Positions 27,966-53,169 of a DNA stretch of 64,000 nucleotides are shown here, piece after piece; position 1 is the first letter of the stretch, and every line of letters starts with the position of its first letter. The DNA lies in the NCBI RefSeq assembly GCF_002804105.1, contig NZ_CP024964.1:310001-374000 (forward strand), read 5' to 3'. The notes under the pieces are model-generated. The model ran no database searches. It saw only the letters and a program-made list of their open reading frames with translations, and was not told the origin of the DNA. Origin of the DNA: Mesoplasma melaleucae (GTDB lineage Bacteria; Bacillota_I; Bacilli_A; Mycoplasmatales; Mycoplasmataceae). Made by a program: the position numbers and the translations under genes.

Positions 27966-28014
27966 CAATATTATTTTAAAAAATGATAAGCATTAATATA
28001 AAATACTGTTTATA

Positions 28015-29990
28015 TTATTTTTGTTTACTAACTTTACTTTTACTCTTTTTTAAAGATTTTTTAATATTTTCAAGTTCACGTTTATTTGCTAGTACGAAAT
28101 GATCTTTTGATACTTCAACAAAATCAGGTGTATCAAAAATGTAATCATAGTGTTCTTCATCTGGTTTATATTCAATTAAGCTTTCACCAAAATTGTATTT
28201 TGGATCTGGTACTGGAATTGCTGATAGTAAATTTTTTTTATATGCATGAAGTGAATTTTTAAATAATTCTTCTGCTTCAGCCATTTCAACAATGTTTCCA
28301 TGATAAATAACAGCAATTCGATCTGCAATAAATTTAACAACAGATAAGTCATGAGTAACAAATAAGTATGTTAAATCATATTTTTCTTTAAACTGTTGAA
28401 ATAGATTTAAAAATTGAGCCCTAATAGAAACATTAAGTGCTGAAATTGGTTCATCAGCAATAATAATTTTTGGTTTAATTGCTAAACTTCTAGCAATTTC
28501 AATACGTTGTTTTTGTCCACCAGAGAATTCATAGGATAACGAGATAAATGTTCAGGAAGTAATCCAGCTGATCTAATTAATTTTAAAATAATGTATTTTT
28601 TAACATCATTAATATTTTCAATTTGATCAATAGTAATCTGATTATCTGGATAGTGTCATTATGTGCTTTTACATAATCCATTTTTGCTTCTTCTAATTTA
28701 TATAATTGGGGGAAGTTGTCAATTCCTTCAGAAATGACTTCTTCGACAGACATTCTTTTATTTAATGATGACCCTTGATCTTGGAAGATCATTTGAACAT
28801 TTTTTTATTTTCTCATTTTTGTGTTTTACTTGGTGTATCAAATAAATATGAATTATTAGCAAGTTCGTCAATTGATGGTAATTTTAAAGATTCAATTAAT
28901 ACTTTAATAGCTTCAACTTCTCTATCAGTAAGTGCAAACTCTTTGTTTTGTCATTTATATCATTCTAAAATTAAAGTTTGATCAGTTATATATTTATCAA
29001 TAATTTCTTTTGCGTCTTTAACATTTGAAAGTTCTTTTGCTATTTTATTAACTTCTTTTGATGTCTGAATATTGTTCTTTTTAGCATTTTCATATGCTTT
29101 TGCAAATGTTGCTTTTGATACATAGATTAAATCATTATATTTTTTAATATTTTATCTTTATGTTTATGTGGAGCAGATAAGTCAAGATTTTGTTTTGCTA
29201 ATTTATCTGCAATTTTAATTCTTCGAATAATTCTATCTTCATTAGTTTTAATTAATTCTAGTTTTTTAAAGCTCATTTCAATAACTTTTAAAAAGTTACT
29301 TGTATCTTTGATTTAATTAAACCTCTAACTGCTTTTTTAATTTTAGCAATATCGAAAAAGTCTAAACTGATTTTGTCTTTTAATTTTTCAACAATGTTTT
29401 TTGTATCTTCACTTTTAAGAATACTTGCTTTTCAAGTTTTGTAGAAATTTCTGGGACAAATTCATGAATACCATATGTAAATTGATTGATTGGATTAAAT
29501 CCTTTAATGATATCATTAATAAATTTAAGGTTTTCTCTTGTTAATTCACGTCTTAGTGATATTGAAGAATAACCAAATTCTTTAGCTAAATTTACTTCTT
29601 TTAATGCTTCTGGATTATCTTTAAATTTTTCATAAACTGCTTTTAAATTTAAGATAGTTTTATTTACATAGTTAGATAAAATTAAGTATTTTAAATCTAA
29701 TAATTAAAATTTTTTATTAATTTCTTTATTAATTGTATAAATAGAAGTTGGTTTCCCAGCAATGATTTCATCATTTAAGTAAGTTGACCCATCTTTAAGT
29801 GGTTGTACACCAGCAATAGCTCTACCAATTGTTGTTTTTTCTGATCCAGATTCAACAACAAGCCCAAAAATTTCTTTTCTGTAAATGTCAAAATAAACAC
29901 TTTTAACAGCTTAAATTTTTTACCTTTATTTCTAAATTCGATAATTAAGTCTCGAATATTAATTAATGCATTTTTATTATCTTTTAACAT
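28015..29990 (-). pseudogene. oppF: Oligopeptide ABC transporter ATPase OppF, pseudogene
   Basis: The start M-L-K-D-N-K is good, but the frame is broken within the first 30 codons and at least four more times. In the continuing frame the P-loop reads E-S-G-S-E-K-T-T, so a conserved Gly is lost. The signature F-S-G-G-Q-K-Q-R, Walker B and the switch His (V-T-H-D-L) appear later, before an intact final 89-codon tail. About 450 residues of Lys-rich helical sequence separate the P-loop from the signature, as in the enlarged mollicute OppF. It would have powered peptide uptake. Not functional as read. Confidence 0.85.
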
Positions 29991-29993
29991 TAG

Positions 29994-31698
29994 TTATCCT
30001 TTTTTTGGGTTAATATCTTTATCTGCGTATTCATTTAATAATCAAGTTTTTGCATAATGTGTTTCAGTAACTTTGAACATTCGTGGTTCATACATATAAT
30101 CAATTTTTAATGCATATTTATTTCTTAGTGCAAATGCATCACCTTTAATTTCATTAAATAAGTTTGGTGGAGTTTCAGGAATAGAATATAATTTTTTACC
30201 TTTAACACCAAGTTGTGGAAGTGATAGTAAAAACGCTCATGTATATGGATGTTTAGCATCTTCAAAGATTTCTTCTGTTGTTCCAATTTCAATGATTTGA
30301 CCAGCATACATAACAGCGACTGTATCAGCAATATTTGCAATAACTCTTAAGTCGTGAGTAATAAAAATAACAAAGAAATTATATTCTTTTTGTAACCTTT
30401 TAATCAGTTTTAAGATTTGTGCTTGAATAGTAACATCAAGTGCTGTTGTTGGCTCATCACAAATTAAGATTTTAGTTCTATAAGCTAAAGCAATTGCAAC
30501 AACAACCCTTTGTCTCATCCCTCTTGAATATTTACCAGTAATATCTTTAAATCTTTGTTCCGCATTTGGAATCCCAACTTGTTCTAATAACTTAATTGCT
30601 TCTTTTTTAGATTCTTCTTTACTTAATTTTAATTATCTTTTAAGGACTTCAGTTAATTGGAAACCAACAGTTAATAATGAGTTTAAAGAAATCATAGGAT
30701 CTTGAAAAATTGTAGCAATAGTTTTTTCTCTAACTTCATGAATGCTTTATTACCAACGTTTTTTGTTTTTATAACAGGAGCTTAAACAATTCTTCAATCT
30801 TCTATTAAATTTGAAAAGTGTTCTTCATTTTTAGCACTAATTTTTTTGTCTTTTGCAATTTGATCAAAAATTACTTTTAATTCTTTTTCAAATCTTAAAG
30901 TATATATTTTTTCAGCAAAATTAGTGTTAATTTCTTCTATAAGTTCAGAAGAAAAAGTAGTTTAATTTTGAATATTGCTTTCAATAACTGGAATTATTTT
31001 TTTAATAATAGCTAACTCTGACATAGACAATGCTTTAACTTTTTTTGTTTCAATATTAATTTGTAATATTACTTTTTCTAATTTTTTTATTCCTTCATTT
31101 CTTAAATCATCTTCAAGAATTATGCGTTTTTTAAAGCTTAAATTGTTTAACTCTTTTTCTAATTTAGATAATTTTTGTGCATCTTTTCTTTTTGTAAATT
31201 CAATAGATTTTGGTTTTGCAATCTCAATTTTTTTCTACTACCTTATTAATTTTTAAATCAATTTGTTCTAAATTTTGTTTAATAATATCATCAGTTTTTT
31301 CTAAAGGATTTAATTTTAAAATTTTTTTTATATCTTTATTTAATTTTTTGATTTTATTTGAATTAGTCTTAGTAATAAACTTAATAACGCTTTTTTCAAT
31401 AACAGAATTTTAGATTTCAACAATATTAATTGGTTTTTTAAAGAAGGCTTGTGCATCATCCTTTGTTTTTTTGATTTGGTTTATAAATAATTGAACCATC
31501 ACTAATTTAACCATTACTTTTAATCATTCCAGTAAAAGTCTTAGTAATTACAGATTTACCTAATCCAGATTCACCTACTAAAGCTAAAATCTCACCATCG
31601 TATAAATCAAAAGAAACATTTCTAATTGCTGTTAAAACACGACTTCTAACTCTAAATTTAACTTCTAAATTTCTTACTGATAAAATTTTGTTTTTTAT
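29994..31698 (-). pseudogene. oppD: Oligopeptide ABC transporter ATPase OppD, pseudogene
   Basis: A GGAG site is followed six bases later by ATA where ATG is expected (31696-31698), so the start codon is lost. N-I-L-S-V-R type residues and a P-loop G-E-S-G-L-G-K-S follow, then several stops and shifts. The C-terminal part is open and conserved: R-Q-R-V-V-V-A-I-A, C-D-E-P-T-T-A-L-D and I-T-H-D-L-R. It lies four bases before oppF. The permease and binding-protein genes (oppB, oppC, oppA) that normally accompany oppDF are not in the window; their expected place is taken by the accessory island. Confidence 0.85.
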
Positions 31699-31820
31699 AA
31701 TTTTCTCCTTTTTTTATAGATTTGATAAAATGATTAAATATATTTAGTATGAAACTAACATCGAGGTAGAACATGGATAAAAATAAAAATTTGGGAGTAA
31801 AACAAAGTTGGGGGGTCTAT

Positions 31821-31846
31821 AAAAAGTGGGCATTCCCCACTTTTTT
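31821..31846. terminator. Strong hairpin terminator at the island's left end
   Basis: AAAAAGTGGG and CCCACTTTTTT pair around a short loop with T and A runs on both flanks, so it can stop transcription in either direction and would isolate oppDF from the island. Confidence 0.75.
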
Positions 31847-31912
31847 ATTTGTTAATTGACATAGATAATTAGTGTCCTCTATTTTTGTATACATGCAAAA
31901 TACTCTTGAGAG

Positions 31913-31945
31913 CCTGATTTAATATTTCTGTTAAATTAGGTTTTT
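31913..31945 (+). terminator. Second terminator-like hairpin
   Basis: CCTGATTTAA pairs with TTAAATTAGG with one mismatch, followed by five T. Confidence 0.6.
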
Positions 31946-31948
31946 ACT

Positions 31949-31995
31949 ATATATATCTATATATCTATATATATCTCTATATCTTATATATTTAT
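31949..31995. repeat. AT-only TATATC repeat tract
   Basis: About 45 bases of imperfect TATATC/TATATATC repeats lie upstream of the first island gene. Such tracts melt easily; an origin-related or promoter role is possible but unproven. Confidence 0.5.
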
Positions 31996-32053
31996 ATAAA
32001 TTTATTATCTATGTTAACTAAATTAAGTTTAAGAAAGGATATTTAAATAATTT

Positions 32054-32374
32054 ATGAATATAGATTCAACAATATTTCTTACAAATATTAAGATTGAAGA
32101 AATAATATTTTCAGATTCTACATTTAATAAAAATAGTAAGTGAATAAAAATTAAATTTAGAAAGAAAGAAGTAAATACAAAAATGGACTACTTCTGAAGT
32201 TTTACAAAAGATAAAGAAACAATAGATAAGGCTTGAAAGCTATGAAATGATGGAAAAAGAGATAATATATCTATTTCAATAAATTTTTGACCAAATAAAA
32301 AAAACAAATATTTACAAGAATCGGATATATCCTATAAATTTTACTTGGTTGATATAAAGGATGCTGATGAGTAA
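32054..32374 (+). CDS. Island hypothetical protein, 106 residues
   Basis: The start is M-N-I-D-S-T, and five TGA codons give Trp at positions consistent with a soluble alpha/beta protein (K-W-I-K-I-K-F-R-K-K; D-Y-F-W-S-F-T-K). No membrane segment and no recognised family. The next frame begins before its stop, so the two are probably coupled. First gene of the island. Confidence 0.6.
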
Positions 32375-32702
32375 AAAATATTTATATCCTTTAAGTACAA
32401 AAGATTATCATAGCCTAGAAACTTTAATTAGAAAATATACTTTTGAAACTATTTATAGAATTTGTGATCAATTGAATAAGGAAATTATTAGTTCAAGTAT
32501 TTACTATAAAAAATATAATATTGAAAAACCCATAAAAAATTTAACTGTTCTTGAACATGATCACTACTGAATTTTAAAACAAATTATTTCTGCAAATGGT
32601 AACGATGAAACTAAATTTGTTCTTCGTTATATTAAAAATAAAAATGTCAAAACTAAAGAAAGGAAAAGTAATGAAATCAATAAAAGGCAATTTGATAGTT
32701 AA
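32367..32702 (+). CDS. Island hypothetical protein, 111 residues
   Basis: The start M-S-K-K-Y-L overlaps the upstream gene by eight bases; an alternative ATG lies six bases earlier. The N-terminal half is helical (Y-H-S-L-E-T-L-I-R-K-Y) and one TGA gives Trp at about 68. The C-terminus is basic. Its 3' end overlaps the next gene by 32 bases. No family recognised. Confidence 0.55.
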
Positions 32703-33060
32703 AAATAAACTATTTAAAAATGCTTATTTACACGACAAGAAAATATATAATTCTATTTTTATAAATTGTGTATTTAGAAATATTACTTTTTCTGCTGAAT
32801 TTTCAAAAGTCAAATTTAAAAATTGTAAATTTCAAAGTTGCATATTTGAGTTTGATTCTGAATGAAGAAAGATAAGATTTATTGAATGCTCATTTACAAA
32901 AAATTTATTCTTTCCCAAAACTTTTAAACATATTTATTTCAAGTCAAATATATTTTACAAAAATTTAACAAGTGGAAATATATTAGAAAATAATAAGTTT
33001 GTATATAAAGTTAAAGGTATTAAGGATATTTCCCAAATCACGTGAGGTGATCATTATTAA
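32671..33060 (+). CDS. Pentapeptide-repeat-like protein
   Basis: 129 residues. From about 25 to 100 the sequence repeats an aromatic or Ile/Leu residue every five positions, with N-C or K-F pairs (F-I-N-C-V-F, F-K-N-C-K-F, F-I-E-C-S-F). This fits a right-handed beta-helix of pentapeptide type. Similar folds mimic DNA and inhibit gyrase or nucleases. It has an AAGGAAAAG site and overlaps the previous gene. The function here is not known. Confidence 0.6.
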
Positions 33061-34568
33061 AAATTATCCTACGTTAGTTGATATAAAATATGTTTCAAAT
33101 GGAATACCAAAAATAAGTAAAAAAGCAAATTGATATAAGTCAGGTGAATATTTAAATTATATTTCCAGAGACGAAGCTGTAATGAAAATTGATTTCACAA
33201 AAGAAGAAATTGCTTTGTTAAGTGAAAAAAAGAAACAAGCTGAAATTAAATTCAAAGAAGAAATTAATGAATTAAACAGTTTATTGGGTACTCTAGATTT
33301 AGATGATAAAAAAGATTTAATTAAAACAACAAGGAAAAAAAGTTTTAAAGATTATTATTTAGCATTAAGTGAAATTACTGCACAAAAGAAATATAAAACT
33401 GGTCTTTATGATCTAAACGGTGAAATAAGTAAGAAAGCTTTATATTGAAAAAAACAGGCGTTTAAAAAAATTGATGCTGATAACCAAATTGTTTGATCAG
33501 GTGTTATTTCTTTTTCTAATGATTTCATGGAGAAGCAACAAATTTACAATGGACATGAATTTCATAAAATTGTTTCAAATAACTTAAAAGAATTTTTTTA
33601 AAATTTAATGATTTTAACATTAAACAAATGGAAACTGTTTTGGCTTTTCATAAAAATACAGACAATACACATTTTCATTTTTCTTTCTTTGAAAAAGTTC
33701 CAACAAAATGAAATGGAAATGAAAAAGAATTTAGAAAAATGGGAAAACTGGACAAAAATTCAATAAGAGATTTAGAACTAAATATAACTCATTCTATAAA
33801 AACAACAAAACAAACATTTGATGATTTATTTAAAAGTAAAGACAATGTCAGAGAACAATATAATTTAAATTTACTTGATTACAAAAAAGTTTTTGATGAT
33901 TTAGTAAATTCTACTCAATTACCTAATAAAGTGATTAATAAACTGAGTAATAAAATTAAAAAAATTTCTTCAGAGAATTTTAATTTAACTTTTGGTTCTA
34001 AAAAACTTAGTCATAAAACAAGAAAAGAAATAGTTAATTTAACTTATACATTTATTGATTCAGTACCAGAATTAAAATCATCGTTTGATGAATTTCAAAA
34101 AGAAAATACAGTTTATGCTAAACAAGAGTTTAAGCGTTTTTTGAAAACTTATAAAAATGAGTATAGTGAAATTGATAATATTAAGAATTTTGATTTAACA
34201 AATGAAGAAAAAGGTTGAGATTATAATTTCAATTTAGATGACGAAAAGGAATTTTTAAAATTTAAAAAAATCAGTTTTTTAATAAAAATATTTTAAGCAA
34301 AGATGAAAATAATAATTTTCAAGGAATAATACCTAATTTAGCAAACATATTAATTCAAGAATTGAAAGAATACGATAATGCAAAAGCAAAACAAAGGAAT
34401 TTCAATAATATAAAAAATAAACTTGATTTTACTAAAAAAGATTATTCTGAGGAAAAGTGAAAGCAAAACAAAATAAATTATCAAGTTAATAATGTAATTA
34501 ATAAATATTATTTACAGGCAAAAAAAACGCAAATTTATTACAAAGAACAATTGATTACAATAAATTAA
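33047..34568 (+). pseudogene. MobL-type relaxase (mobilization protein), frameshifted
   Basis: Three parts read in sequence. Part 1 has the MobL N-terminus (Y-I-S-R-D-E-A-V) and a V-I-S-F-S-N-D-F segment. Part 2 has the HUH metal site in N-T-D-N-T-H-F-H-F followed by F-F-E-K-V-P. Part 3 is a basic helical tail. The parts are split by one missing base in a T run near 33594 and one in an A run near 34264. The start is the GTG at 33047 or the ATT at 33056, which is better spaced from GAGGTG. Relaxases nick plasmid or element DNA at oriT for transfer. Product truncated at about residue 184 as read. Confidence 0.8.
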
Positions 34569-34599
34569 CAAATAACAAACTTTTTAATTAAGGAGATCT

Positions 34600-35012
34600 A
34601 TGGCATTTATTAAAACTAACGGTCAAGTGATATTAAACATCAAAACAGTGCATTTAAAAAACACTTTTAAAATTACAAAAACATTTGATAATGAAACAGG
34701 TAAGGAAAAAAAATTAAAGTTTTTTCAGTTAAAATCCCTTCATCATTAATACCCATGTCTGAAAATTTTTGTTGAATAAATGTTAGTGAGTATTATTGTC
34801 AAATGCAAGAACTTGAATGAGAAGCTAAGACAAATAATAAATCATGAAAATTAACTATTGATCCACTTAAAAAATATAGTGTATATAAAAATATTCAAGG
34901 CGACGTTAAAGAAATATATCAGTTAAGTGGCGAATCAATCATTAAATATTTTATTGAACAAGAACAAGAAAGAAAAATTTATACGTCAAAATTTTATATA
35001 AAAAATGATTAA
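34600..35012 (+). pseudogene. Island hypothetical protein, frameshifted
   Basis: An AAGGAG site precedes the start M-A-F-I-K-T-N-G. After about 35 codons an A run at about 34708-34715 is one base short for the frame. The continuation (K-V-F-S-V-K-I-P-S, later W-I-N-V-S-E-Y-Y) runs cleanly to 35012. The whole would be about 137 residues of mixed beta/alpha, without membrane segments. No family recognised. It lies between the relaxase and a membrane protein, and could be an accessory DNA-binding or mobilization factor. Confidence 0.5.
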
Positions 35013-35027
35013 TGAAAGGAGAAAAGA

Positions 35028-35294
35028 ATGAGCGGATCAATGACGATATCAATAATTTGTTTAATTGTTCTTTCGATTGTGTTTTCAATAATTCTTGGAA
35101 TATTAGCTATCAATAAATATAGATTTTTTAAAAAAGAGTCAAAAGAAAAAGATTTTTCAACAGATAGGAATGACATCAAAACTAAAAATAAAAAAGAGTT
35201 TAAAAAACTCTTCGAAATATATTTAATTATATTTTCTGCAAACGTTCTTCTGGTTAATGTCTTAGTTATGATTGGTTTTTTAACTCAGATTTAA
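35028..35294 (+). CDS. Small membrane protein of the island
   Basis: 88 residues; two hydrophobic segments (about 5-28 and 65-86) with a charged middle rich in Lys, Glu and Asp. AAAGGAG lies well placed before the ATG. The last 29 bases overlap the end of a minus-strand gene. No family recognised. Confidence 0.6.
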   Translation: MSGSMTISIICLIVLSIVFSIILGILAINKYRFFKKESKEKDFSTDRNDIKTKNKKEFKKLFEIYLIIFSANVLLVNVLVMIGFLTQI

Positions 35295-35670
35295 TTTTGA
35301 AAGATAAATACATATTTCAACCACCAAAAACATTTAGTTGAATATATCCAATTGCAATTATTATTGTGGTCATAACTTCGGTTAAAAGTTTTAATGAAAA
35401 ATTATAAAGCTTAACAAGGAAATCATCATTTCAAGCAAGGGTATATAAACCTAAGAAACCGATTGCTAAAATAATGAAAATATTTATTCCTCAAACAGTG
35501 AAAAATACTATAATTTGTTTTTTAAATAATTCCAAAGATCAGGTCTCTATTGGTCAATCATATTTATTACTTAGCCAGTAAATCAATCCTATTAAAATAA
35601 TGAAACCAATAGATATAAGAATTGGTATGTACATCATTGAAAGTATTTTCTCTAAAAAAATTCAATACAT
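35266..35670 (-). CDS. Membrane protein on the minus strand of the island
   Basis: 134 residues with six TGA-coded and one TGG-coded Trp. Three hydrophobic segments can be seen (about 12-33, 52-75 and 92-112). It is the only minus-strand frame in the island and is convergent with the gene before it. A further ATG pair lies 36 bases into the frame. The start context is GGAAAAGAG. No family recognised; it could be an independent regulatory or immunity gene. Confidence 0.5.
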
Positions 35671-35716
35671 AATAATATTCTCTTTTCCATAATCATTATA
35701 CCAATACAAATAGGAG

Positions 35717-35992
35717 ATGATGTTTATCACAAAATTAACCAAAACAGAATATATAAAAGACTTTGCAACTAAACACAATATAAGCCAACGCAAAGCTAAA
35801 GGCTTAATAAATACAGTGTACGCACACTTATTAAAATCCATGAATGAATATGATTGTGTATTTACACCACTAGGTAAAACTATGGTGGTTAAAAAAGAAG
35901 AATGCTCAACGTATCAGAACATTACAAAAATAGAAATCAAAATGATCGAACAAAAGGAGGAAGTTGATGTCAAAAGAAATCAAAAAAGATAA
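35717..35992 (+). CDS. HU-like DNA-binding protein of the island
   Basis: 91 residues. T-K-T-E-Y-I-K-D-F-A and I-S-Q-R-K-A-K-G-L-I resemble the two N-terminal HU helices, and F-T-P-L-G-K-T-M matches the beta-sheet entry (G-F-G-K-F in HU). The arm is short and lacks the Asn-Pro tip. It is clearly different from the chromosomal hup product. It may compact element DNA or act as an architectural factor at oriT. It begins behind AGGAG and overlaps the next gene. Confidence 0.6.
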   Translation: MMFITKLTKTEYIKDFATKHNISQRKAKGLINTVYAHLLKSMNEYDCVFTPLGKTMVVKKEECSTYQNITKIEIKMIEQKEEVDVKRNQKR

Positions 35993-36155
35993 AACAATAG
36001 ACAATGTAAAAATTGATTTTTTCGATGTTAAAAAACAAGAATCAATTTTAAATCATACAAATAAAATAGATAAAAAATTATTAGAAAAAGAAGTTATTAA
36101 AATAGTTTCTTGTAAATCTTATAAGAGTGCTGAAATAACTTTAATGGTGAAATAA
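35967..36155 (+). CDS. Small charged island protein, 62 residues
   Basis: Starts at the ATG after AGGAGGAAGTTG and overlaps the HU-like gene by 26 bases. Lys-rich (K-E-I-K-K-D-K), soluble, with one Cys. No family recognised. The very good ribosome-binding site supports translation. Confidence 0.5.
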   Translation: MSKEIKKDKTIDNVKIDFFDVKKQESILNHTNKIDKKLLEKEVIKIVSCKSYKSAEITLMVK

Positions 36156-36178
36156 AATGGAAAATATAAAACCACTGT

Positions 36179-36727
36179 ATGTCTTATCTAAAAAAATACA
36201 TAAGTCATATCGATAATTTAGTAAAACAACTTAAAAAGGATAAAACAAATCCACACTTTACAAAAATTGTTAAAAACGGCAGAGAGTACGAAGTAGCTAT
36301 ACAAAATGGTTATAAAAACTTAAAAACAATGCCAAACTTTTATGTTTATGAAAATGTTGGAGCTGGAAAAACATTTAATTCAAGAAAACTTGAAGAACTA
36401 GGAATGTTTGTTAAATGATCATATTTTTGAAGACAATTTAATGAACAAACTTTTATGTTTGAAAAAAGTAAAACAATTTTAACTCAACTTTTGATTATTG
36501 ATGATATAGGTTCAAGTGCTCTAACTCTAATACAATTAGAAATATTGTTGGAAATAATTGATATGCGAATGGATAAAAAATTAAAAACAATTATAACTAC
36601 AAATTTATCATTAAATGATTTACAAAATAAAATGAAAAAAATTGATTTAACTCAAAATCAAAGAATTGCTGATAGGCTAAAAACCTTTACACATGTTAAT
36701 TTTGACAATGAAAGTTTAAGAGTCTAA
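36179..36727 (+). CDS. DnaC/IstB-like AAA+ ATPase (helicase-loader type)
   Basis: 182 residues as read. The P-loop E-N-V-G-A-G-K-T lies near 59-66, Walker B L-L-I-I-D-D-I-G near 103-110, a sensor T-T-N-L-S, and the arginine-finger region R-I-A-D-R-L near 163-168. These are the landmarks of DnaC-type loaders. A better start (ATG at 36157 behind GGTGAAAT) opens another frame that meets this one if one A is removed from the A7 run at about 36190, so a frameshift near the N-terminus is likely. It could load a host replicative helicase on element DNA. Confidence 0.62.
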
Positions 36728-36751
36728 TAAAAAAGAATAGGAGAATAAGAA

Positions 36752-37192
36752 ATGAATATATTACATTTTCTACTAGGCTGAATATCAGGGAAACCATTTT
36801 CTAGGGATAAAAAATTAGAAATTACACCAGTAGCATTTGTACTTACAATTTTAACAATTTTGTATTGTGGAATTACTAGTGTGCCAATTTATTTTATTAC
36901 TATTTATCTCTTAGACCAACCTTTAGCAGAAGAAGCCAACAACATTATTATAATTAAATATTTTATGTTATTAATTTGAGTACTTTTGGGAATAGTTTTA
37001 CTTTTCTCTTACTTTAAGTTTTTAATGAGTTTATTAAAACTATATGCATCTGAAGATAAAAATGCAAAAAAATGAAAAGACTTAATTAAATCAAGTGGTA
37101 TTACTTTATTCTGAATATTGTTTTATTTGCTACTTGCATTTCTTTTAAAACAAGTGCAAATACAATTAGTCAATATTAATTCAAATTTTTAA
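36752..37192 (+). CDS. Multi-pass membrane protein of the island
   Basis: 146 residues with four TGA-coded Trp. Three long hydrophobic segments at about 26-52, 72-97 and 118-138, with a Lys-rich cytoplasmic loop (E-D-K-N-A-K-K-W-K). The site AGGAGAATAAG precedes the ATG. No family recognised. The gene is intact. Confidence 0.6.
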
Positions 37193-37209
37193 AAACAGAG
37201 GTAAAAAAT

Positions 37210-37455
37210 ATGAATATACCAACTTATAAAATTGTTTGAATGGGAAATAAACCTTTATACGTAATGCAATGTTTAGAATGCAAAGAAATAATTGAATTAG
37301 AAATGAAATCATGTCCTTTATGTAAATTTAAAGAACATTGTTGTCCTGGATATTTTACAACTGCAGATGTTAAGCATTGTGAATTCCATGAAGCAGTAAT
37401 TTATATGCCTATGATTTTAAAAATAAAAGACAAATATATAGAAAAAAAGGAATAA
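37210..37455 (+). CDS. Zinc-ribbon-like small protein
   Basis: 81 residues. Two CxxC pairs (C-L-E-C and C-P-L-C, about residues 21-38) and further Cys and His (H-C-C-P, K-H-C-E-F-H) suggest two small zinc sites. The start is behind GAGGTAAA. One TGA-coded Trp at 10. No family recognised; such ribbons often bind nucleic acid. Confidence 0.55.
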
Positions 37456-37459
37456 CCCA

Positions 37460-37890
37460 ATGCAAAAGAAACAAATTAAAATACTACAAGAGTTTTTTGA
37501 TTTAGTAGAAAGTGGAATTAAAACTTTTGAATTAAGAAAAGACCCAAATCTTGAAGGAATAAATGAATTAGTAGTTATAGAGCATATATGCTCAAATGAT
37601 ATTACAAATAGAGATATTGTGATTATGCAAATTGTCCTATAATCACTGATGACTGCATAAGTGATAGATTAACAGTTAAAATGACTAAAAAAGATTTAAG
37701 TGTTTATGAGATAGTAAGAAAAATAAACCAAAGATTAAATTGAATTTTAAATCTTGGAGGTTATGCTAAACTTTCTATTGAAGAAAATAAAGAAATGTTA
37801 ATGTTAATTAATGTTGATAAGTTCTTAATAGAATATACAAAAGATAATAAACCTTTTTATTGATATGATGTTGAAATTATAAAGGAGTAA
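37460..37890 (+). pseudogene. ASCH/DUF3850-like protein, frameshifted
   Basis: The N-terminus (I-L-Q-E-F-F-D-L-V-E-S-G, then K-T-F-E-L-R-K) matches the start of DUF3850/ASCH-like domains, where the loop binds RNA or nucleotides. The frame stops at 37642, but the neighbouring frame continues from about 37615 to a natural end at 37890 with two TGA-coded Trp. One base appears to be missing near 37615-37625. The gene starts four bases after the zinc-ribbon gene. Confidence 0.55.
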
Positions 37891-37891
37891 T

Positions 37892-38119
37892 ACGAAAGAA
37901 TTTGAAGCAATTATAACTGAATGTGACAGCGGACATACAACCTTATGAAGCGAGTATGGTTTAGGTAAAAGTGAAGGATGAGAACAGATAGATACAACTC
38001 ATATTGACACTTGTAAATTATGTGGTAATCAGATATGTCCACAATGCGAAAATAATGCAGATAAAAATGAAGAATATTGTTCAAAACAATGTGAACATGA
38101 TTCAAAAGATTATAGCTAA
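37892..38119 (+). CDS. Cys-rich small protein with ACG in place of the start codon
   Basis: 75 residues if read from the ACG at 37892, which stands seven bases after AAAGGAG where ATG is expected. T-E-C-D-S-G-H-T-T-L-W-S-E-Y-G-L-G is followed by C-K-L-C, C-P-Q-C and a C-terminal C-S-K-Q-C. It is a diverged copy of the gene at 38588, which has the same E-C-D-S-G-H and Cys pattern and a normal ATG. Either the start was lost by one T-to-C change or ACG is used weakly. Confidence 0.55.
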
Positions 38120-38133
38120 AGAAGGAAAAAGAA

Positions 38134-38332
38134 ATGAAAGAACAAATTAAAGAATTTAACAAATTAGTAGAGGAAAATAACTTGGATCTACAATTAGTAG
38201 GAAGTAATCCTTTATTATATACAAAGAAAAGATGGATTTACTATAACATTCATAAAAGATGGAAATGTAACAGAGTTATTTAATTTTATACAAGGTTTAA
38301 AATTTGAATTAAATTTATTAACACATGATTAA
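38134..38332 (+). pseudogene. Small island protein, frameshifted
   Basis: The start M-K-E-Q-I-K-E-F-N-K has a GAAGGAA site. After about 32 codons one base seems to be extra in AAAGAAAAGATGG. The shifted frame D-G-F-T-I-T-F-I-K-D-G-N-V runs to a stop at 38332. The repaired length is about 65 residues. No family recognised. The 98 bases after it contain only a short C-R-E-C remnant. Confidence 0.45.
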
Positions 38333-38429
38333 TCGAATTAATGGTTTAAATAGTAAAGAAGTCAAACAATGTAGAGAGTGCAAGTTTTAGAAGCAATATT
38401 TAAAGAATTATTAAAAGGAGAATAGAATA

Positions 38430-38582
38430 ATGGCGACAAGAATTTTATACATAATAAATGAAAGCAAAGATGAAAATATTACAACTTATGAAATTGAAGA
38501 AGAAAGTTTCAGTGATGAACTTTTTATTGGTAGCACTGTTTCACAAGATGAAATATTAAAAATATATGTAAAAGGAGAATAG
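38430..38582 (+). CDS. Short acidic island protein, 50 residues
   Basis: Behind AAGGAGAATAGAATA, with many Glu and Asp (E-I-E-E-E-S-F-S-D-E). The size and charge suggest a small regulatory or DNA-mimic-like peptide, but no family is recognised. Its end nearly abuts the ribosome-binding site of the next gene. Confidence 0.45.
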   Translation: MATRILYIINESKDENITTYEIEEESFSDELFIGSTVSQDEILKIYVKGE

Positions 38583-38587
38583 GGAAT

Positions 38588-38809
38588 ATGGCGATAAAAA
38601 CTTATGATGCAACTATTATGGAATGTGATAGTGGGCATATTACTTTATGTAGTGAATATGGACTGGGTAATGGTGGAGATTATCAACAAGAATATAGTTC
38701 AACACCAGATGAATGCAGATATTGTGGAGAAATTATTTGTAAACAATGTTATGATGATGAACAATATTGTAATGAAGAGTGTGAATATGAGGACAACAAA
38801 AATGACTAA
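38588..38809 (+). CDS. Cys-rich small protein, intact copy
   Basis: 73 residues. M-E-C-D-S-G-H-I-T-L-C-S-E-Y-G-L-G is followed by C-R-Y-C, C-K-Q-C and a C-N-E-E-C pair, giving at least eight Cys in pairs that can hold two zinc ions. The tail is acidic. A paralogue lies at 37892. An AAAGGAG site is well placed. Its end overlaps the next gene by eight bases. No family recognised. Confidence 0.6.
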   Translation: MAIKTYDATIMECDSGHITLCSEYGLGNGGDYQQEYSSTPDECRYCGEIICKQCYDDEQYCNEECEYEDNKND

Positions 38810-39428
38810 AAAAGAAATCAAATTATCGAACAAAGAGCTGAACCTAAAATTAAATTATGCAGAAAATTTTAAGCCAGCAGCTGGGAGCGTTGGAGAGTTT
38901 CAAAGAAATTACATTAGACATTTAATTAATTTATATAATAAAGGTTTATCAAGACCTGCGCAATACCAAAACTTACATTTTAAAATTGAACAACATAAAC
39001 TAGAATTAGAGCTTAAAAAAAATAATATTTTAGAAGAACAAAATAAAAATCAATTTTATTATGATGAAGAATTTAATGAAAAGCAATTTAAAAATTTTGA
39101 TTTTTCAAATATTGATATAAAGGATTTAGATCTTAATTCATCTTTCACCAATTGTAATTTTAGTGGATGTTTTTCTAGCTTACAAACTATAAATGTTAAT
39201 GATGCTTATTTTGAAAATTGTGATTTTTCAAATTCAAAACTTATCGGTTTAGATACATCAAGTGGAGATAAGTTTGGTGTTGGATTTAAGAATTGCAAAT
39301 TTATAAATACTGATTTTAGTTTTGCAAAATTAGAAGATAGTACTTTTGAAAAATGTGTTTTTGAAAATATAAATTTAAACAATGCTGATATATGGCGTAA
39401 AAAATTATGAAACATATGATTTGTTTAA
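38802..39428 (+). CDS. Pentapeptide-repeat protein
   Basis: 208 residues as read. The N-terminal 90 residues are helical and Lys-rich. From about 90 on there are pentapeptide repeats (F-D-F-S-N, L-D-L-N-S, F-T-N-C-N-F-S-G-C-F, F-K-N-C-K-F-I-N-T-D-F). The last codons look wrong: at about 39393 a neighbouring frame continues for 32 more residues to 39492, where its stop overlaps the next ATG. A C-terminal frameshift is therefore likely. The protein is related in style to the 32671 gene. Pentapeptide proteins can mimic DNA. Confidence 0.65.
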
Positions 39429-39491
39429 ACAAATTCAAAATGAATTTAAAGTTAATGAAGATATTGAACTTGAAGAAGGTCAGGTTTTATA

Positions 39492-39716
39492 ATGCAATGC
39501 GAAATATGTAAAAAAGTATTACCTTTAGCTAGAGAAAATAGCAAATGAGTATGCATTCAATATTGCTTATCTGAAAAAATTAAAAAGAAATTTTTTAAAA
39601 CTAATATTGTTCGTAACATAACACTTCTAGAAAAAGAAGAATGAGTTCAACATAGTGATCATAGAGCTCACAAAGAATTAAAATGTTTAACTTGTGTAGG
39701 TATACAAAATGAGTAA
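39492..39716 (+). CDS. Small Cys-rich protein before the methyltransferase
   Basis: 74 residues. C-E-I-C at residues 3-6, C-I-Q-Y-C near 21-25 and C-L-T-C near 66-69, with two TGA-coded Trp, indicate a small zinc protein. The start codon overlaps the end of the frameshifted pentapeptide reading frame by one base and its own end overlaps the methyltransferase start by eight, so all three are coupled. No family recognised. Confidence 0.55.
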
Positions 39717-40492
39717 ATTTATAAGCCCATTAACTTGACCTGGTGGAAAATCTAAACAATGAAATTTAATTAAAGAACTATTCCCAAAAGAAACAAAACA
39801 TCTACAATATGTTGAGCCATTTTTTGGAGGTGGTTCTGTTGGATTAAATGCTTTAAGAGAAAAATTTATTTAGTAACTATATTTTTAATGACATAGATCA
39901 AGATTTAATAGCATTTTGAATACATTTAACTCAATTGGATATTAAAAGCTTTAAACATTGATTTTATCCTAATGTTAAGGAAATAGGTATATTAAACAAT
40001 GTTATAGTTCAAGACGGAACTATGAATTATTTGATGAATAATAATTTAACTTTTAATGGTCAAGCAAAAGGAACTTGAACGCAATTAAGATTAGAGCAAA
40101 ATTGAAATATTAATAAATGAGAAAGAATTTTAAAATGTAAAGAATTATTACTAAAAAATAAAGATAAAGTTAAGTTTAATAATCAAAATTATTGAATGCA
40201 ATGTTTTATTTATGAATCATTTTATTATTTTGATCCGCCGTATTTTGCTAATAAAGGCAAACCACATAAACATAAATTTACTCACAATGATTGAACATCA
40301 TTTAAGTTCTTTATTGATTATTTAAATGACAGAGGACAATTATTTTTAATTAGTTTAGATAATTGCTCAGAAATAAAGGAAATGTTCAAAGATTATATTA
40401 TTGTTGAAAAAGAATGAAAATATACAAGTTCAAATACAAAAGGCAATAAAATTTGTAAAACTGGAAAAGAATTATTTATTAAAAATTATTAG
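39709..40492 (+). pseudogene. D12-class (Dam-like) adenine-N6 DNA methyltransferase, frameshifted
   Basis: The N-terminus P-L-T-W-P-G-G-K and the SAM motif P-F-F-G-G-G-S lie in order near residues 7-48, and the catalytic motif D-P-P-Y is at about 175, as in the D12 family that methylates adenine (GATC for Dam). The frame is closed by a TAG at about 39871, but removing one A from the A5 run at about 39859 restores a frame to 40492. Many TGA-coded Trp occur in the second part. No restriction gene is adjacent. Confidence 0.78.
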
Positions 40493-40902
40493 AAATTAGG
40501 GATTGTATTAGGCGCATTCTTCGTTATTATTGTTATAATTACAGCATCATTATTAATTATGTTAATCGGAGATATATACATAGCTTCACTTGAAAGGTTT
40601 ATGATATTAATGAAGTCATTTGGATATTCAAACTGAAAAATTCAGAAATATTCATTTGGAGTTATTAGTGTATTATCAATTGTTGCATGGATTATATCTA
40701 CATTACTAGCAACAGCTGCAATGTCATCAGTTTCTTATGTTCTGGCATTTTATGGTTTAGCTATTCCGATGGCAATTACATGATGACCATTTATTGTTTC
40801 AGCAATTATTATTGAACTGCCTTCTTTGGTAGTTTATTAGTTATTACAAAAAAGATTAGAAACGGTGATCCAGCAGGATTATTAAATGAAACAAACGATT
40901 AA
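40493..40902 (+). pseudogene. Truncated FtsX-type ABC permease, 3' remnant
   Basis: No start and no 5' part. The open frame begins next to the methyltransferase stop and encodes a long hydrophobic segment, a loop with I-A-S-L-E-R-F-M-I-L-M-K-S-F-G-Y-S, and further membrane helices. This is the C-terminal part of an FtsX/MacB-type permease. A shift near 40815 is needed to reach the usual basic end (I-T-K-K-I-R-N-G-D-P-A-G-L-L) at 40902. The 5' part is not found elsewhere in the window, so it was deleted when the island or a later rearrangement arrived. Confidence 0.72.
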
Positions 40903-40913
40903 AAGGAGTTATT

Positions 40914-45644: not shown

Positions 45645-47000
45645 ATGGAAAAATTAATTGCTCATTTGAAATCTCAAGGGTTTATTTTTCAAGGATCAGA
45701 AATCTATGGAGGATTAGCTAATTCTTGAGATTCTGGACCATTAGGTGTAGAAGTTAAGAATAAATTAAAACAAGCGTGATGAAATCATTTTGTTAAAAAA
45801 AATCCTTACAACATCGGTTTAGATAGTTCAATTATTTTAAATTCAAGCGTTTGAAAAGCAAGTGGGCACATTGATGGATTCAATGATCCATTAATTGATT
45901 GCAAAAAATGTAATAGTAGATGAAGAGCAGATAAATTAATTGAAGAGTTTGATTATGAAAGTAATGCAGGTGTTATGACTGATGCTCAAATGGAAGAGTT
46001 TATTAAAGCAAAAGACATTAAATGTCCTAAGTGTCAAGCATGTGATTTTACACAAATTAGAAAATTTGCCTTAATGTTTAAAACTAACCAAGGAGTTTTA
46101 GAAGACGAATCATCAAGTGTATACTTAAGACCAGAAACAGCTCAAGGTATTTTTATTAACTTTAAAAATGCACAAAGATCTTTAAGAAAAAAACTACCTT
46201 TTGGAATTGGGCAAATTGGTAAATCATTTAGAAATGAAATTACACCAGGTAACTTTATTTTTAGAACACGTGAATTTGAACAAATGGAATTAGAGTTTTT
46301 CTTTAATCCATCAGATGAACAAGATTGATTTTCATACTGATTAAATGAGGTTGAAACTTTTTTACAAGATAAAGTTAAAATATCTAAAGAAAATTATAGA
46401 GTTAGAAATCATGAAAAAGATGAATTAGCACACTATTCAACTGCAACAAGTGATATTGAATTTAAATTCCCATTTGGATGAGGTGAATTATGAGGTGTTG
46501 CTCATAGAGGAAACTTTGATTTAAATGCACATCAAGAAGCTTCTAAGCAAGATTTAACTTATTTAGATCCAACAACTAATCAAAAAGTTTTACCACATGT
46601 TATTGAGCCAAGTGTTGGTGTTGAAAGAATGATGTTAGCAATTTTATGACAAGCTTATCATGAAGAAGATTTGGGTGAAGGCAATTCTCGTATTGTTATG
46701 AAATTACCATATAACTTAGCTCCATACCAAGTTGCAGTTATGCCATTACAAAAACAACAAAATGATGAAGCACAAGCTTTATATACAAAATTGTTAGAAA
46801 ACTTTGACGTAATTTATGATGAAACTGGTAATGTTGGAAAACGATACAGAAGACAAGATGCAATTGGAACTCCATTTGTGATTACTGTTGACTTTGATAC
46901 ACCAGAAACAAATTCTGTAACAGTTCGTGAAAGAGATTCAATGGAACAAGTTCGTGTTAATCTAGATGAACTTGAAGTCTTTTTAACAGCTAAATTTTAA
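45645..47000 (+). CDS. glyS: Glycyl-tRNA synthetase (single-chain type)
   Basis: 451 residues, many TGA-coded Trp. The N-terminus has [14 protein letters not shown] with G-P-L-G. Class II motif 2 lies in G-K-S-F-R-N-E and [11 protein letters not shown] zinc-ribbon-like C-x2-C pair is near 88-91 and a second near 126-132. The C-terminal anticodon-binding domain ends at F. This is the alpha2 type found in Gram-positives and eukaryotes. No T-box is visible in the short gap upstream. Confidence 0.95.
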
Positions 47001-47030
47001 TTACTAATTTTAGAAAAGGGAGTGATGCTT

Positions 47031-48908
47031 ATGTTAATACCAAAAGAAGTTATTGAAGATATAATTCAAAAGTCAGATATAGTTTCTATAATTAGCGAAA
47101 GAGTCACTCTTTCTAAAAAAGGAAGAAACTATTGAGGTTTATGTCCATTTCATCAAGACTCAAATGCTTCAATGTCAGTTTCACCTGAAAAAAAATTCTT
47201 TAAATGTTTTTCTTGTCAGGTATCAGGAACAGCATTAGATTTTATTAAAGACTTTGATAATATTAGTTTTCAAGATGCAATTAAAAAACTATCAAGTCTA
47301 ATAAACTACGATTTAACAAAATATCAAAGTAATATTCCTCAGCAACAAAATAAAGATGCTATCTTATACAAATTAAATGAAGAAGCACTTGCTTTCTTTA
47401 AATTGAATTTAAGATCCAATGAAGCAAAACCAGCTGTTAAATATTTACATTCAAGAGACATAACAAATGAAGATATCCAATTTTTTGAAATTGGTTACTT
47501 ATCAAAAACTAATAGTCTAGTTGATCATCTTTTAAACAAGGGATTTAATATTTCTGATATTGTTGATGCTGGATTAGGTTCTTATAATGAAGAGCGAAAT
47601 AAATTGTATGATATTTTTCAAGATCGTATCTTATTCCCAATCAGAAATGAAAATAAGGAATTAATTGGATTTAGCGGAAGAATCATAGAAACTGGTTCTG
47701 ATCGGCCTAAATATTTAAATACTAAAGAAACAAAAGTCTTTTCAAAAAGAAAGATTGCATATAACTTTAGTGAAGCAATTAAATCAGCAAGAATTAAAAA
47801 AGAAATAATTATTTTAGAAGGTTACATGGATGTTATAAGTATGCATAAAAATGGAATTAATAACACAATAGCATTGATGGGAACCGCGCTATCGCAATAT
47901 CATGTTAATTTATTTAAAACAATTAAGGGAACTGTCAAAATGTTTTTAGACGGTGATGAACCTGGAATAAAAGGAAACATTGAAGCAGCGCAAACTTTAA
48001 TTTCAAGTAATCAAAAAGTTTTAATCGTAAATAACCCAACTAATAATGACCCAGATGAATTAATAAAACAAGGACGTAAAGCAGAAGTTGAACAAATGAT
48101 CACTAATGCAACTAACCCACTTGAATATATTATTTATAAACGATGAAATAAAGTTGATCCAAAAGATTTTAATTCAGTTGAAGAGTTTATGAAAGAAGTT
48201 TGTACTTTTGTAATTAATTGTAATAATCAAATACTTTATGAAACTTCAATTGATAAACTAGAAAAAGTAACTAATTTATCAAAAGAGTCAATTATTGATT
48301 TTTATAAAAAACATACAAGAAGTAGAACAATGACTTTTACAAATTCAAATCAAGAAGTAAAAGAAAAGGTTATTGAACCTAAACCAAAACAAGAAAAAGA
48401 AAATAATCAAAACTTTAATGTTTTATCATCACTAAAAGCTTATGAGCTAGCAGGAAAGACAATTCTTTTTGATTTAATTAAATCTAATAAAAACCTAGAA
48501 CTCATAAAAGAAAAAATTCGTGAAGTTAATTTTCCACATAAGAAATTTGGTAAACTAATTAGTCAAATCATTAATTCTTATGATGAAAATATTAACTGCA
48601 GTGAAGTTGAAATAAAGGAAATGTTGGCGAAACATTCAACACCTGAAAATCTTGAAGAGATTGCATGATATGAAAATGATCCATTGATGGTTCACAAAAA
48701 AACAAATGTCGATTCAACTAAACTAATTGAAAATTCATTTGAAAAATTAAAAATGTATTCAAATGAGAAAAAGATAATTGAAATAAACGAAATGTTAAAA
48801 GCTAAAAACTTAAGCAAAGCAGATCGGGAAAACTTAATGAATATTTTGTCAGATAGAATTAAAAAAAGAGAAGAATGATTAAGTATTTTTAATGATAAGA
48901 ATAACTAA
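47031..48908 (+). CDS. dnaG: DNA primase
   Basis: 625 residues. The N-terminal zinc finger has C-P-F-H and C-F-S-C (about 39-64). The Toprim catalytic core contains E-G-Y-M-D-V and F-L-D-G-D-E (metal-binding acids). A helical C-terminal part would bind the DnaB helicase. TGA-coded Trp occur in several places. The start at 47031 is eight bases from GGGAG; an ATG six bases upstream is too close. dnaG-rpoD is the conserved pair. Confidence 0.95.
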
Positions 48909-51028: not shown

Positions 51029-51797
51029 GATAGTTAAATATTTAGAAAAAAAGTTTCCAACTAATAAAGCGTATGATTGAGATTCTGTTGGTTTTCAGCA
51101 ATTTAATAAAAAGGTTATAGATTTTGATAAAGAAATTTCAAATGTCTTAATCACAATGGATTTAACTAAATTAGCTTTAGATGAAATTAAAAAAAATAAC
51201 ATTGAATTAATAATCACTAGACATCCTTTTATCTTTAATGAATTAACAAAAGAATTAGAAAATCCATTTAAAAAAGATTTAATTAAGTTCTTAACAAAAG
51301 AAAATATTCTTGTTTATTCAATTCATACAAACTATGATATCTGTGCTTATCAAAGTTTTATTGATCAGTTAAATACAGCATTAAATATTAAAAAGGCAAA
51401 GTTCCCGTTAATGCATAAAGAATATCTTGATGTAACATTAGCTAAAGAACTTTCAATTAATGATTTAATTAATAAATTAAAAGTTATGTTTAATACAAAA
51501 ACAATTGAAATCAATTCAGAATTAATAAATCAAAATAAAATTTCAAATTTTTTAATTAATCAAGGTAGCGGAGCTAGTGCTATGTTTTCAAAACAATTAA
51601 GCAATATTGTTTTTATAACAGGTGAAGCTAAGTGAAGTGATTGAATTTATGCAAATGATAATAATGTTACATTAATTGTGGTTGGACATTACATGGAGAA
51701 TTATTTTATTAATGATTTAGCAAGTAGTTTATCAAATAATTTTAAAGATTTAAAAATAGAAAAAGTAGATATAAAGGAACAATACTATGTTAAATAA
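51015..51797 (+). CDS. Nif3-like dinuclear metal center protein
   Basis: 260 residues with four TGA-coded Trp. Family landmarks are present: D-S-V-G-F-Q near 23-28, an I-T-R-H-P-F-I-F segment near 69, H-T-N-Y-D near 107 and a C-terminal V-G-H-Y-M-E near 228. Nif3 homologues have two adjacent His at the T-x-H-P site; here the first is Arg. The Glu after the last His is one residue closer than usual, so the metal site may be altered. Function of the family is not established. Overlaps trmK and the helicase gene. Confidence 0.88.
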
Positions 51798-53169
51798 TAA
51801 TGAAAGAAAGTTTAGTGATTTTGGTTTTAAAAAATACATTAATGATACTTTAAAAGAAATTAATTTTGAAACACCAACAAAAATTCAAACTGAAATAATT
51901 CCTTTAATCAAAAAACATCAAAATGTTATTGCCTTGTCACACACAGGAACAGGAAAAACACATGCATTTTTATTACCTATTTTAAATAACTTAAAATTTG
52001 ATAAAGATAAACAAAATGTTCAAGCATTAATAATTGCTCCAACCAGAGAATTAGCCAAACAAATTTATGATAATGTTCGACAATTTACAAAAAATGAATC
52101 GCAATTAAAAGTTGATTTATTTATTGGTGGAGAAGATATTAATAAACAAATTGATGCATTAGGGAAAAGACAACCAACAATTGCTGTTGGAACTCCAACA
52201 AGAATTAAAGAATTATATGAACAAAATCATCTTAAAGCAACTACAGCAGATTACATCATTATTGATGAATGTGATATGATATTTGATTTAGGATTTATTG
52301 AAGATGTTGATTTTGTTGTATCCAAAGCAAAACAAAATGTGAATCTATCAATGTTTAGTGCAACAATTCCTGAACAATTAAAAGGATTTGTAACTAAATA
52401 TGCACGAAATGCTCATTTCATTGATGTAACAGAAAAAAATGTTTCAAATAAAAACATTAAACATGTATTGATTGATACAAAAAATAAAGAAATTGAATTA
52501 GTACTAACAAACATTCTAAAATCAATTAATCCTTATTTATGTTTAATCTTTACAAATCATAAAGATGATATTTCAAAATATGTGAAACTAGTTAGAGAAA
52601 TAACAGGTCAAAATGTTAGTGAACTACATGGTGATCTTCAACCAAGAACTAGAATGAATATGCTTAAAAAAATTAAAAATAATGAATTTAAGTTTGTTGT
52701 GGCAACAGATGTTGCTGCAAGAGGTGTTGATATAATTGGAGTTAGTCATGTTATATCAATTGATTTACCAACTGATTTATCTTATTACATTCACCGAAGT
52801 GGAAGAACTGGAAGAAGTAAATTAACTGGAGAAAGCTACGTTCTATTTAATATCAAAAATCAAGAAAAAATTGAAGCCTTACAAAAAATTGGAATTGAGT
52901 TTATGCAGTTAAAGTTAGATAACAATCAATTGATTGAAGTAAGAAGCAAAAACAAGAAGAAAGCTAAACATTATGAAGACTTAGATACTGACTCTAAAAA
53001 AGTAATTGCTAAGTACAATAATCAAAAAGTTAAGCCTGGGTATAAGAAAAAAAGAAAACGTGAGCTTGATGAAATAACTAGAAAAAAACGTCGTGAACAT
53101 ATTAAAAAAAGTATTGATAAAATTAAAAAAGAAAAATATAAAAAACGTCGTAAAGAATTATTTGATTAA
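51787..53169 (+). CDS. DEAD-box family RNA helicase with a DECD box
   Basis: 460 residues, no TGA. The helicase motifs are all present: Q motif near 28-33, A-H/S-H-T-G-T-G-K-T (51-58), P-T-R-E-L-A (about 85-90), D-E-C-D (160-163), S-A-T, and H-R-S-G-R-T-G-R. The third DEAD residue is Cys instead of Ala. The C-terminal 100 residues are very basic (K-K-K-R-K-R), fitting RNA binding. It probably acts in ribosome assembly or mRNA turnover. The start lies inside the end of the Nif3 gene. Confidence 0.9.
   Translation: MLNNNERKFSDFGFKKYINDTLKEINFETPTKIQTEIIPLIKKHQNVIALSHTGTGKTHAFLLPILNNLKFDKDKQNVQALIIAPTRELAKQIYDNVRQFTKNESQLKVDLFIGGEDINKQIDALGKRQPTIAVGTPTRIKELYEQNHLKATTADYIIIDECDMIFDLGFIEDVDFVVSKAKQNVNLSMFSATIPEQLKGFVTKYARNAHFIDVTEKNVSNKNIKHVLIDTKNKEIELVLTNILKSINPYLCLIFTNHKDDISKYVKLVREITGQNVSELHGDLQPRTRMNMLKKIKNNEFKFVVATDVAARGVDIIGVSHVISIDLPTDLSYYIHRSGRTGRSKLTGESYVLFNIKNQEKIEALQKIGIEFMQLKLDNNQLIEVRSKNKKKAKHYEDLDTDSKKVIAKYNNQKVKPGYKKKRKRELDEITRKKRREHIKKSIDKIKKEKYKKRRKELFD

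Follow-up and report, generated by a model that had tools for sequence, protein, structure and literature searches.

The window examined here is a stretch of 64,000 nucleotides from Mesoplasma melaleucae (contig NZ_CP024964.1, positions 310,001 to 374,000 of the forward strand), and positions within it are counted from its first letter. Reading frames were taken with genetic code 4 (TGA as Trp), and the sequence reads well in this way. Part of the window is occupied by a mycoplasma-type ICE (integrative conjugative element) in truncated form, at whose right-hand edge genes for Cys-rich proteins, a pentapeptide-repeat protein and an adenine DNA methyltransferase follow one another; a fuller ICE copy is present in the same genome at about 220-252 kb (stretches L003 and L004). 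The relevant features of the window are as follows:

31790-40492, plus strand: truncated, decayed mycoplasma-type ICE copy, with its left end at about 31790 and its transfer genes missing
32671-33060, plus strand: gene of a second, basic pentapeptide protein of about 129 aa, just 5' of the relaxase gene
32999-34588, plus strand: MobL/MobP-type relaxase gene, in several frames here and a single 530-aa ORF in the ICE copy
36179-36727, plus strand: gene of an IstB/DnaC-like ATPase (the ICE-copy homologue matches Pfam IstB_IS21 at 32.8 bits, cut-off 24.1)
38588-38809, plus strand: gene of a Cys-rich 73-aa protein, an open frame that overlaps the start of the pentapeptide gene by 8 bases
38802-39492, plus strand: gene of a pentapeptide-repeat protein, its frame broken near the 3' end
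39492-39716, plus strand: gene of a Cys-rich 74-aa protein, intact
39709-40492, plus strand: gene of a D12-class adenine DNA methyltransferase (D12), in two frames
40493-40904, plus strand: tail of an FtsX-like permease gene (named by eye), forming the host-side junction right after the D12 stop

The first-pass annotation had described the last three genes of the element as one overlapping block, in which a repaired pentapeptide frame ends on the start of the Cys-rich gene and the latter runs into the methyltransferase. These coordinates hold. The pentapeptide frame that starts at 38802 meets a stop at 39426-39428, the remainder lies one frame over, and this continuation ends at a TAA (39490-39492) whose final A also begins the Cys-rich ATG, a one-base overlap. 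The D12 start at 39709 overlaps the 3' end of the Cys-rich gene by 8 bases; the first D12 frame encodes 54 residues up to a stop at 39873, and the next frame carries the rest to 40492. The genes and their overlaps are thus real, but two of the three genes are not open frames in the window copy: in the region of the block only the two Cys-rich genes are open, while the pentapeptide gene and the D12 gene are both broken into two frames. Nor are the start/stop overlaps special, since short or negative gaps separate many genes along both copies of the element.

The fuller copy is an ICE of the known mycoplasma kind (Mbov_0396/0397/0399/0401, as in ICEA). It passes the NCBIfam cut-offs for four Mbov families, with a VirB4 matching NF045975 (the Mbov_0397 family) at 860 bits (cut-off 590), and with Mbov_0396 at 142 bits (cut-off 70), Mbov_0399 at 183 (cut-off 170) and Mbov_0401 at 247 (cut-off 162). 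It further encodes a CD1115-type VirD4 (253 bits, cut-off 250) and a MobL relaxase (48.9 bits, cut-off 28.5). In comparison with the mycoplasma ICEs, the window copy is truncated and the relaxase identified here is MobL.

A DNA search of the whole genome, covering 845,295 bases, gave a second site for the Cys-rich/D12 part at 244,996-246,013, with a 73% match, and the fuller copy surrounds this site. The left part of the window element (31790-36758) is 98.8% identical to the fuller copy over 4,978 aligned bases. Beyond 36758 the two copies are mosaic: the window stretch 37474-38161 matches the fuller copy at 97%, and the region that carries the 73-aa gene together with the pentapeptide gene is without a DNA match there. 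In the Cys-rich/D12 part, the Cys-rich gene has about 96% DNA identity between the copies, and D12 drops to 37%-85% per 60-column step. Hairpins were considered as oriT candidates: both copies have one at the left end; the strongest hairpins of two stretches from elsewhere (L066 and L060) looked different. Phage and plasmid records contained no DNA relatives that we could find.

When ten proteins of the ICE copy were compared with the window by tblastn, only MobL (in pieces), D12 and the Cys-rich protein matched; the search found no VirB4, VirD4/TraG, Mbov_0396, Mbov_0399 or transposase-like protein there. The element is physically cut off at 40492/40493, and the permease tail that begins there is 56-63% identical to a 733-aa permease adjoining the fuller ICE copy. 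The near identity of the left part, the permease junction directly after D12 and the losses seen with tblastn identify the window element as a truncated, decaying ICE copy, and the block is the surviving edge of a mycoplasma-type ICE cargo region. With the element cut short and its genes for the pentapeptide protein, the relaxase and the methyltransferase interrupted, the block probably has no function in the window at present. To the left of the element, on the minus strand (28000-31400), an ABC-transporter ATPase region (OppD-like by eye) seems fragmented.

The Cys-rich and D12 genes stand in the same order in both copies, with the same 8-base overlap in the ICE copy, where D12 is intact. 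The 74-aa Cys-rich protein has three Cys pairs, is 93% identical to its counterpart in the ICE copy and, judging from its sequence, is probably a zinc binder. Its gene differs between the copies at eight codons, five of them with amino-acid changes, which are too few to judge purifying selection. The 73-aa protein encoded at 38588-38809 shares 46% identity with a protein of 75 aa from the ICE copy. Beyond the two own copies, no Cys-rich relatives were found in 60 genomes of the family, nor among PDB chains, and of the pattern matches obtained in genome_contigs (34) and viral_contigs (14) none was confirmed.

The intact D12 protein of the ICE copy (269 aa) matches Pfam MethyltransfD12 at 78.8 bits (cut-off 22) and carries the motifs WPGGK, FFGGGS and DPPYY. 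We aligned it with the two pieces from the window and with relatives from eight other genomes, of which that of G013 lacks the N-terminal part. In the ICE copy motifs I and IV stand together in one unbroken frame; this is not so in the window copy, whose C-terminal piece has the motif DPPYF and scores 30.8 bits against MethyltransfD12 (cut-off 22). As for Dam and DpnM, membership of the MethyltransfD12 family is above cut-off, but the ICE-copy protein falls below the TIGR00571 dam cut-off (87 versus 114.85 bits). Its nearest solved chains are 7m6b (E 9.9e-19), DpnM (2dpm) and EcoDam. Counts of 16 four-base palindromes, GATC among them, in four stretches showed no clear element-specific depletion, and site depletion thus pointed to none of them as the D12 target.

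In the window, D12 has the Cys-rich gene and the permease tail as its neighbours, with no adjoining cognate endonuclease. In the ICE copy a 169-aa methyltransferase homologue (PHROG 799, 97.5 bits) comes next, and then a 777-aa N6 methylase. Neither immediately next to D12 in the ICE copy nor among the annotated neighbours of its relatives could an endonuclease be recognised, and in both the window and the ICE copy D12 is an orphan methyltransferase in the sense that no endonuclease gene directly adjoins it. One gene beyond its immediate neighbour, however, the 777-aa methylase contains an HSDR_N-type domain (34.2 bits, cut-off 25), so that part of the methylase cluster of the ICE copy may be restriction rather than anti-restriction. 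The 777-aa protein (HSDR_N plus N6-methylase; L003:6045-8378) and a 477-aa OLD/AriA-like ATPase of the same ICE (L004:13678-15111) show similarity, below cut-off, to proteins 2 and 3 of the MADS system.

Relatives of D12 occur in 13 of the 60 family genomes, the own genome included (E<=1e-8), and in eight genomes besides the own the best match reaches 40% identity (40-54%; G034, G042, G057, G040, G004, G005, G023 and G013). Homologues of ICE proteins are present in the stretches fetched from five of these eight (G034, G042, G057, G004 and G013). A C5 methyltransferase is found near D12 in G042, G004 and G013, and both G004 and G013 have a homologue of the 169-aa methyltransferase that comes after D12 in the own ICE. 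These neighbour counts are lower bounds, since Pfam annotation covered 10 selected neighbour proteins. The large neighbours in the D12 regions of G034 and G042 have no accepted Pfam family and could be anything. Downstream of D12 in the conjugative elements of two genomes, proteins of 584 and 548 aa (L058:6801-8555 and L059:8210-9856) are similar to each other by eye and likewise have no accepted Pfam family.

By sequence comparison, then, D12 is a solitary methyltransferase on a conjugative element, with relatives that recur on such elements, and these two properties make protection from restriction a reasonable role for it. The earlier proposal that a solitary methyltransferase shields the element survives to this extent: its genetic setting is confirmed, and its protective function is plausible. 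In PMC11541004, orphan methyltransferases are enriched in plasmid leading regions; they are likewise solitary methyltransferase genes on conjugative elements, whereas the carrier here is a mollicute ICE and the likeness concerns the kind of gene. The ICEA of M. agalactiae also bears a putative orphan methyltransferase, CDSH (PMC9465063, in excerpt), whose likeness to D12 is at the level of being an orphan methyltransferase. According to the same source, CDSH from the native ICE had no effect on the methylome, and mating fell when the gene was expressed by force (PMC9465063), which tempers the claim of protection for D12.

We lean, with reasonable though not strong confidence, towards the view that the block is a remnant of ICE cargo in which D12 served self-protection and the pentapeptide protein was interchangeable, and that it is inactive in the window. 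In intact elements, the solitary D12 enzyme, in some cases accompanied by other methyltransferases, would methylate the DNA of the element and so let it escape the recipient's restriction enzymes. The small Cys-rich protein, translated immediately before D12, would probably be a zinc-binding accessory or regulator, and the pentapeptide protein, as cargo of the window copy, would be dispensable for the methyltransferase. The three other D12 genomes without an ICE-protein match in the fetched stretch (G040, G005 and G023, of eight) count against this explanation, as do the lack of a clear palindrome depletion, the score under the dam cut-off, the HSDR_N-type domain of the neighbouring methylase and the behaviour of CDSH.

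A lesser possibility, which we regard as doubtful, is that the methyltransferase regulates the element (for example, through methylation-dependent expression or excision) or is a leftover of a restriction-modification system. The behaviour of CDSH on ICEA described above would be in line with this, as would the nearby protein of the ICE copy that joins HSDR_N to an N6 methylase. The same can be said of the two D12 alleles, 44% identical over the C-terminal part, which stand behind nearly identical Cys-rich genes; however, allele exchange at one position fits a changing specificity of protection at least as well, and the flanks of D12 described above, in the ICE copy and in the annotated relatives, also speak against a restriction-modification origin. 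The apparent exchange point lies near the Cys-rich/D12 gene junction (window 39709-39900 versus L003 9600-9794).

The second pentapeptide protein, encoded at 32671, scores 25.6 bits against Pfam Pentapeptide_4, under the cut-off of 38. It is basic (net +14, pI 9.8; other readings and relatives net +9 to +22), and its structure model is poor (mean pLDDT 39). Proteins of this type occur in four of 298 genomes of the order (E<=1e-4). MobL at 40% identity or more was found in exactly three genomes (G000, G057 and G058), and in all three the 32671-type protein is encoded 5' of MobL on the same strand, a placement that ties the basic protein to the transfer region and not to the methyltransferase. 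In G057, the D12 gene is followed within 0.3 kb by the basic pentapeptide gene and then by the gene of a 133-aa pentapeptide protein with 12 Cys; in G058, D12 was seen only as a fragment (29 residues at 76%). In the 133-aa protein (L060:10207-10608), encoded in the same ICE region, a pentapeptide stretch is combined with a part rich in Cys that probably binds zinc, and no homology was found between this protein and those of the block.

It is tempting to suggest that the basic protein is a transfer protein, such as a DNA- or relaxase-binding accessory, rather than an anti-restriction factor. Its constant position relative to MobL and the basic charge of all copies point in this direction, as does the fact that the 298 genomes contain one other match only, a weak one in G202. 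Yet only three elements are concerned, the structure model is poor, and in G057 and G058 between 1.7 and 2.5 kb of small genes separate the protein from MobL, so that on balance we consider the suggestion rather unlikely. Less likely again is that this lineage of mollicute ICEs conserves the protein as a factor for transfer or establishment that binds DNA or the relaxosome and does not mimic DNA, in which case the 133-aa pentapeptide-plus-Cys-rich protein of G057 would be another such accessory. Pentapeptide proteins are a family best known for gyrase protection, and transfer would be a new role for them.

The preferred reading of the block as an inactive remnant takes its broken frames at face value. 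They could alternatively be sequencing or assembly errors, with the block intact and working in the cell. Consensus errors are common at homopolymer runs, and the breaks of the block, together with several of those in the relaxase, lie at or near short runs of this kind. However, large housekeeping ORFs of the window are uninterrupted (e.g., 45645-47000, 47022-48908, 51787-53169 and 54866-58903), the relaxase is intact in the near-identical ICE copy, and the element ends in a physical truncation at 40492/40493. We therefore think it quite improbable that the breaks are artefacts.

The pentapeptide protein of the block matches Pfam Pentapeptide_4 at 44.8 bits (cut-off 38) and Pentapeptide at 33.6 bits (cut-off 20.2). 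Its repeats are genuine, beyond chance: residues 91-200 contain a run of eight hydrophobic residues at 5-residue spacing that was reached in 3 of 5000 shuffles, and the best-phase hydrophobic fraction of the same residues was reached in 52 of 5000. The first-pass annotation had looked to a beta-helix with an acidic surface. A right-handed quadrilateral beta-helix is predicted in the C-terminal half (pLDDT 54-86 per 10-residue block over residues 131-200), in a model that is poor as a whole (pLDDT 54) and has a helical N-terminal half, but the acidic charge is not there, the protein having a net charge of -1 and its repeat half of -4. Foldseek matched the model to QnrB1, AlbG and MfpA among many repeat proteins. 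Sequence matches to MfpA and QnrB1 are weak, and the scores are far below the family cut-offs (Qnr 24.6 versus 240 bits, MfpA 18.1 versus 360). The protein shares the pentapeptide repeats with MfpA and Qnr, and its predicted fold is similar by Foldseek; it differs from them in the helical N-terminal half and in not being strongly acidic, and the 32671 protein differs in being basic. Most likely, the block protein would act as a scaffold that binds other proteins.

Relatives of the block protein outside the own genome amount, among the 60 family genomes, to two weak matches in G031. We discounted these as true relatives: they lie in an island that also encodes a PAPS-reductase protein and a Z1/DUF4420-like pair, and probably reflect the repeats only. 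Besides a 456-aa pentapeptide protein and the protein with the PAPS-reductase domain, the genes of this island (L082:1822-8855) specify a GHKL-type ATPase, a protein with a Z1 domain and one that is DUF4420-like.

That the pentapeptide proteins are DNA mimics which block restriction enzymes and form one anti-restriction module with the methyltransferase, as first proposed, is the least likely reading of the locus: the overlapping co-location, the predicted C-terminal beta-helix with its Foldseek matches and the gene order in G057 agree with it, but the charges argue against mimicry for the 32671-type protein (basic in all copies) and lend no support to it for the near-neutral block protein, the Qnr and MfpA models score far under their cut-offs, the pentapeptide gene of the block is absent from the fuller ICE copy even though Cys-rich and D12 genes are there, with only the weak G031 matches elsewhere, and McbG and QnrB were without effect on BREX exclusion in the section of PMC7261183 consulted, where no anti-restriction activity is shown for pentapeptide proteins. 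What had been proposed as an anti-restriction module is better seen as the remnant of a known class of element, and its plausible anti-restriction part narrows, apart from the pentapeptide proteins, to a single methyltransferase, of which the genome has an intact relative elsewhere.

The genome holds further traces of the ICE and of possible restriction genes. At a third site, at 422 kb, about 0.95 kb of the ICE left end is preserved at about 91%. Within L088:1046-4713 (about 422-426 kb), this third scar is followed by the gene of a 905-aa protein that has ResIII/helicase domains and a PLD domain (NgoFVII-type), and this gene is a candidate for restriction or defence. ResIII matches are present in the genome, and a Methylase_S match was obtained below cut-off only and with many stops. 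Some 9-11 kb away from this scar, pieces of the transposase-like gene of the ICE and of a Mbov_0396-type gene lie in several frames (L087:9637-12530).
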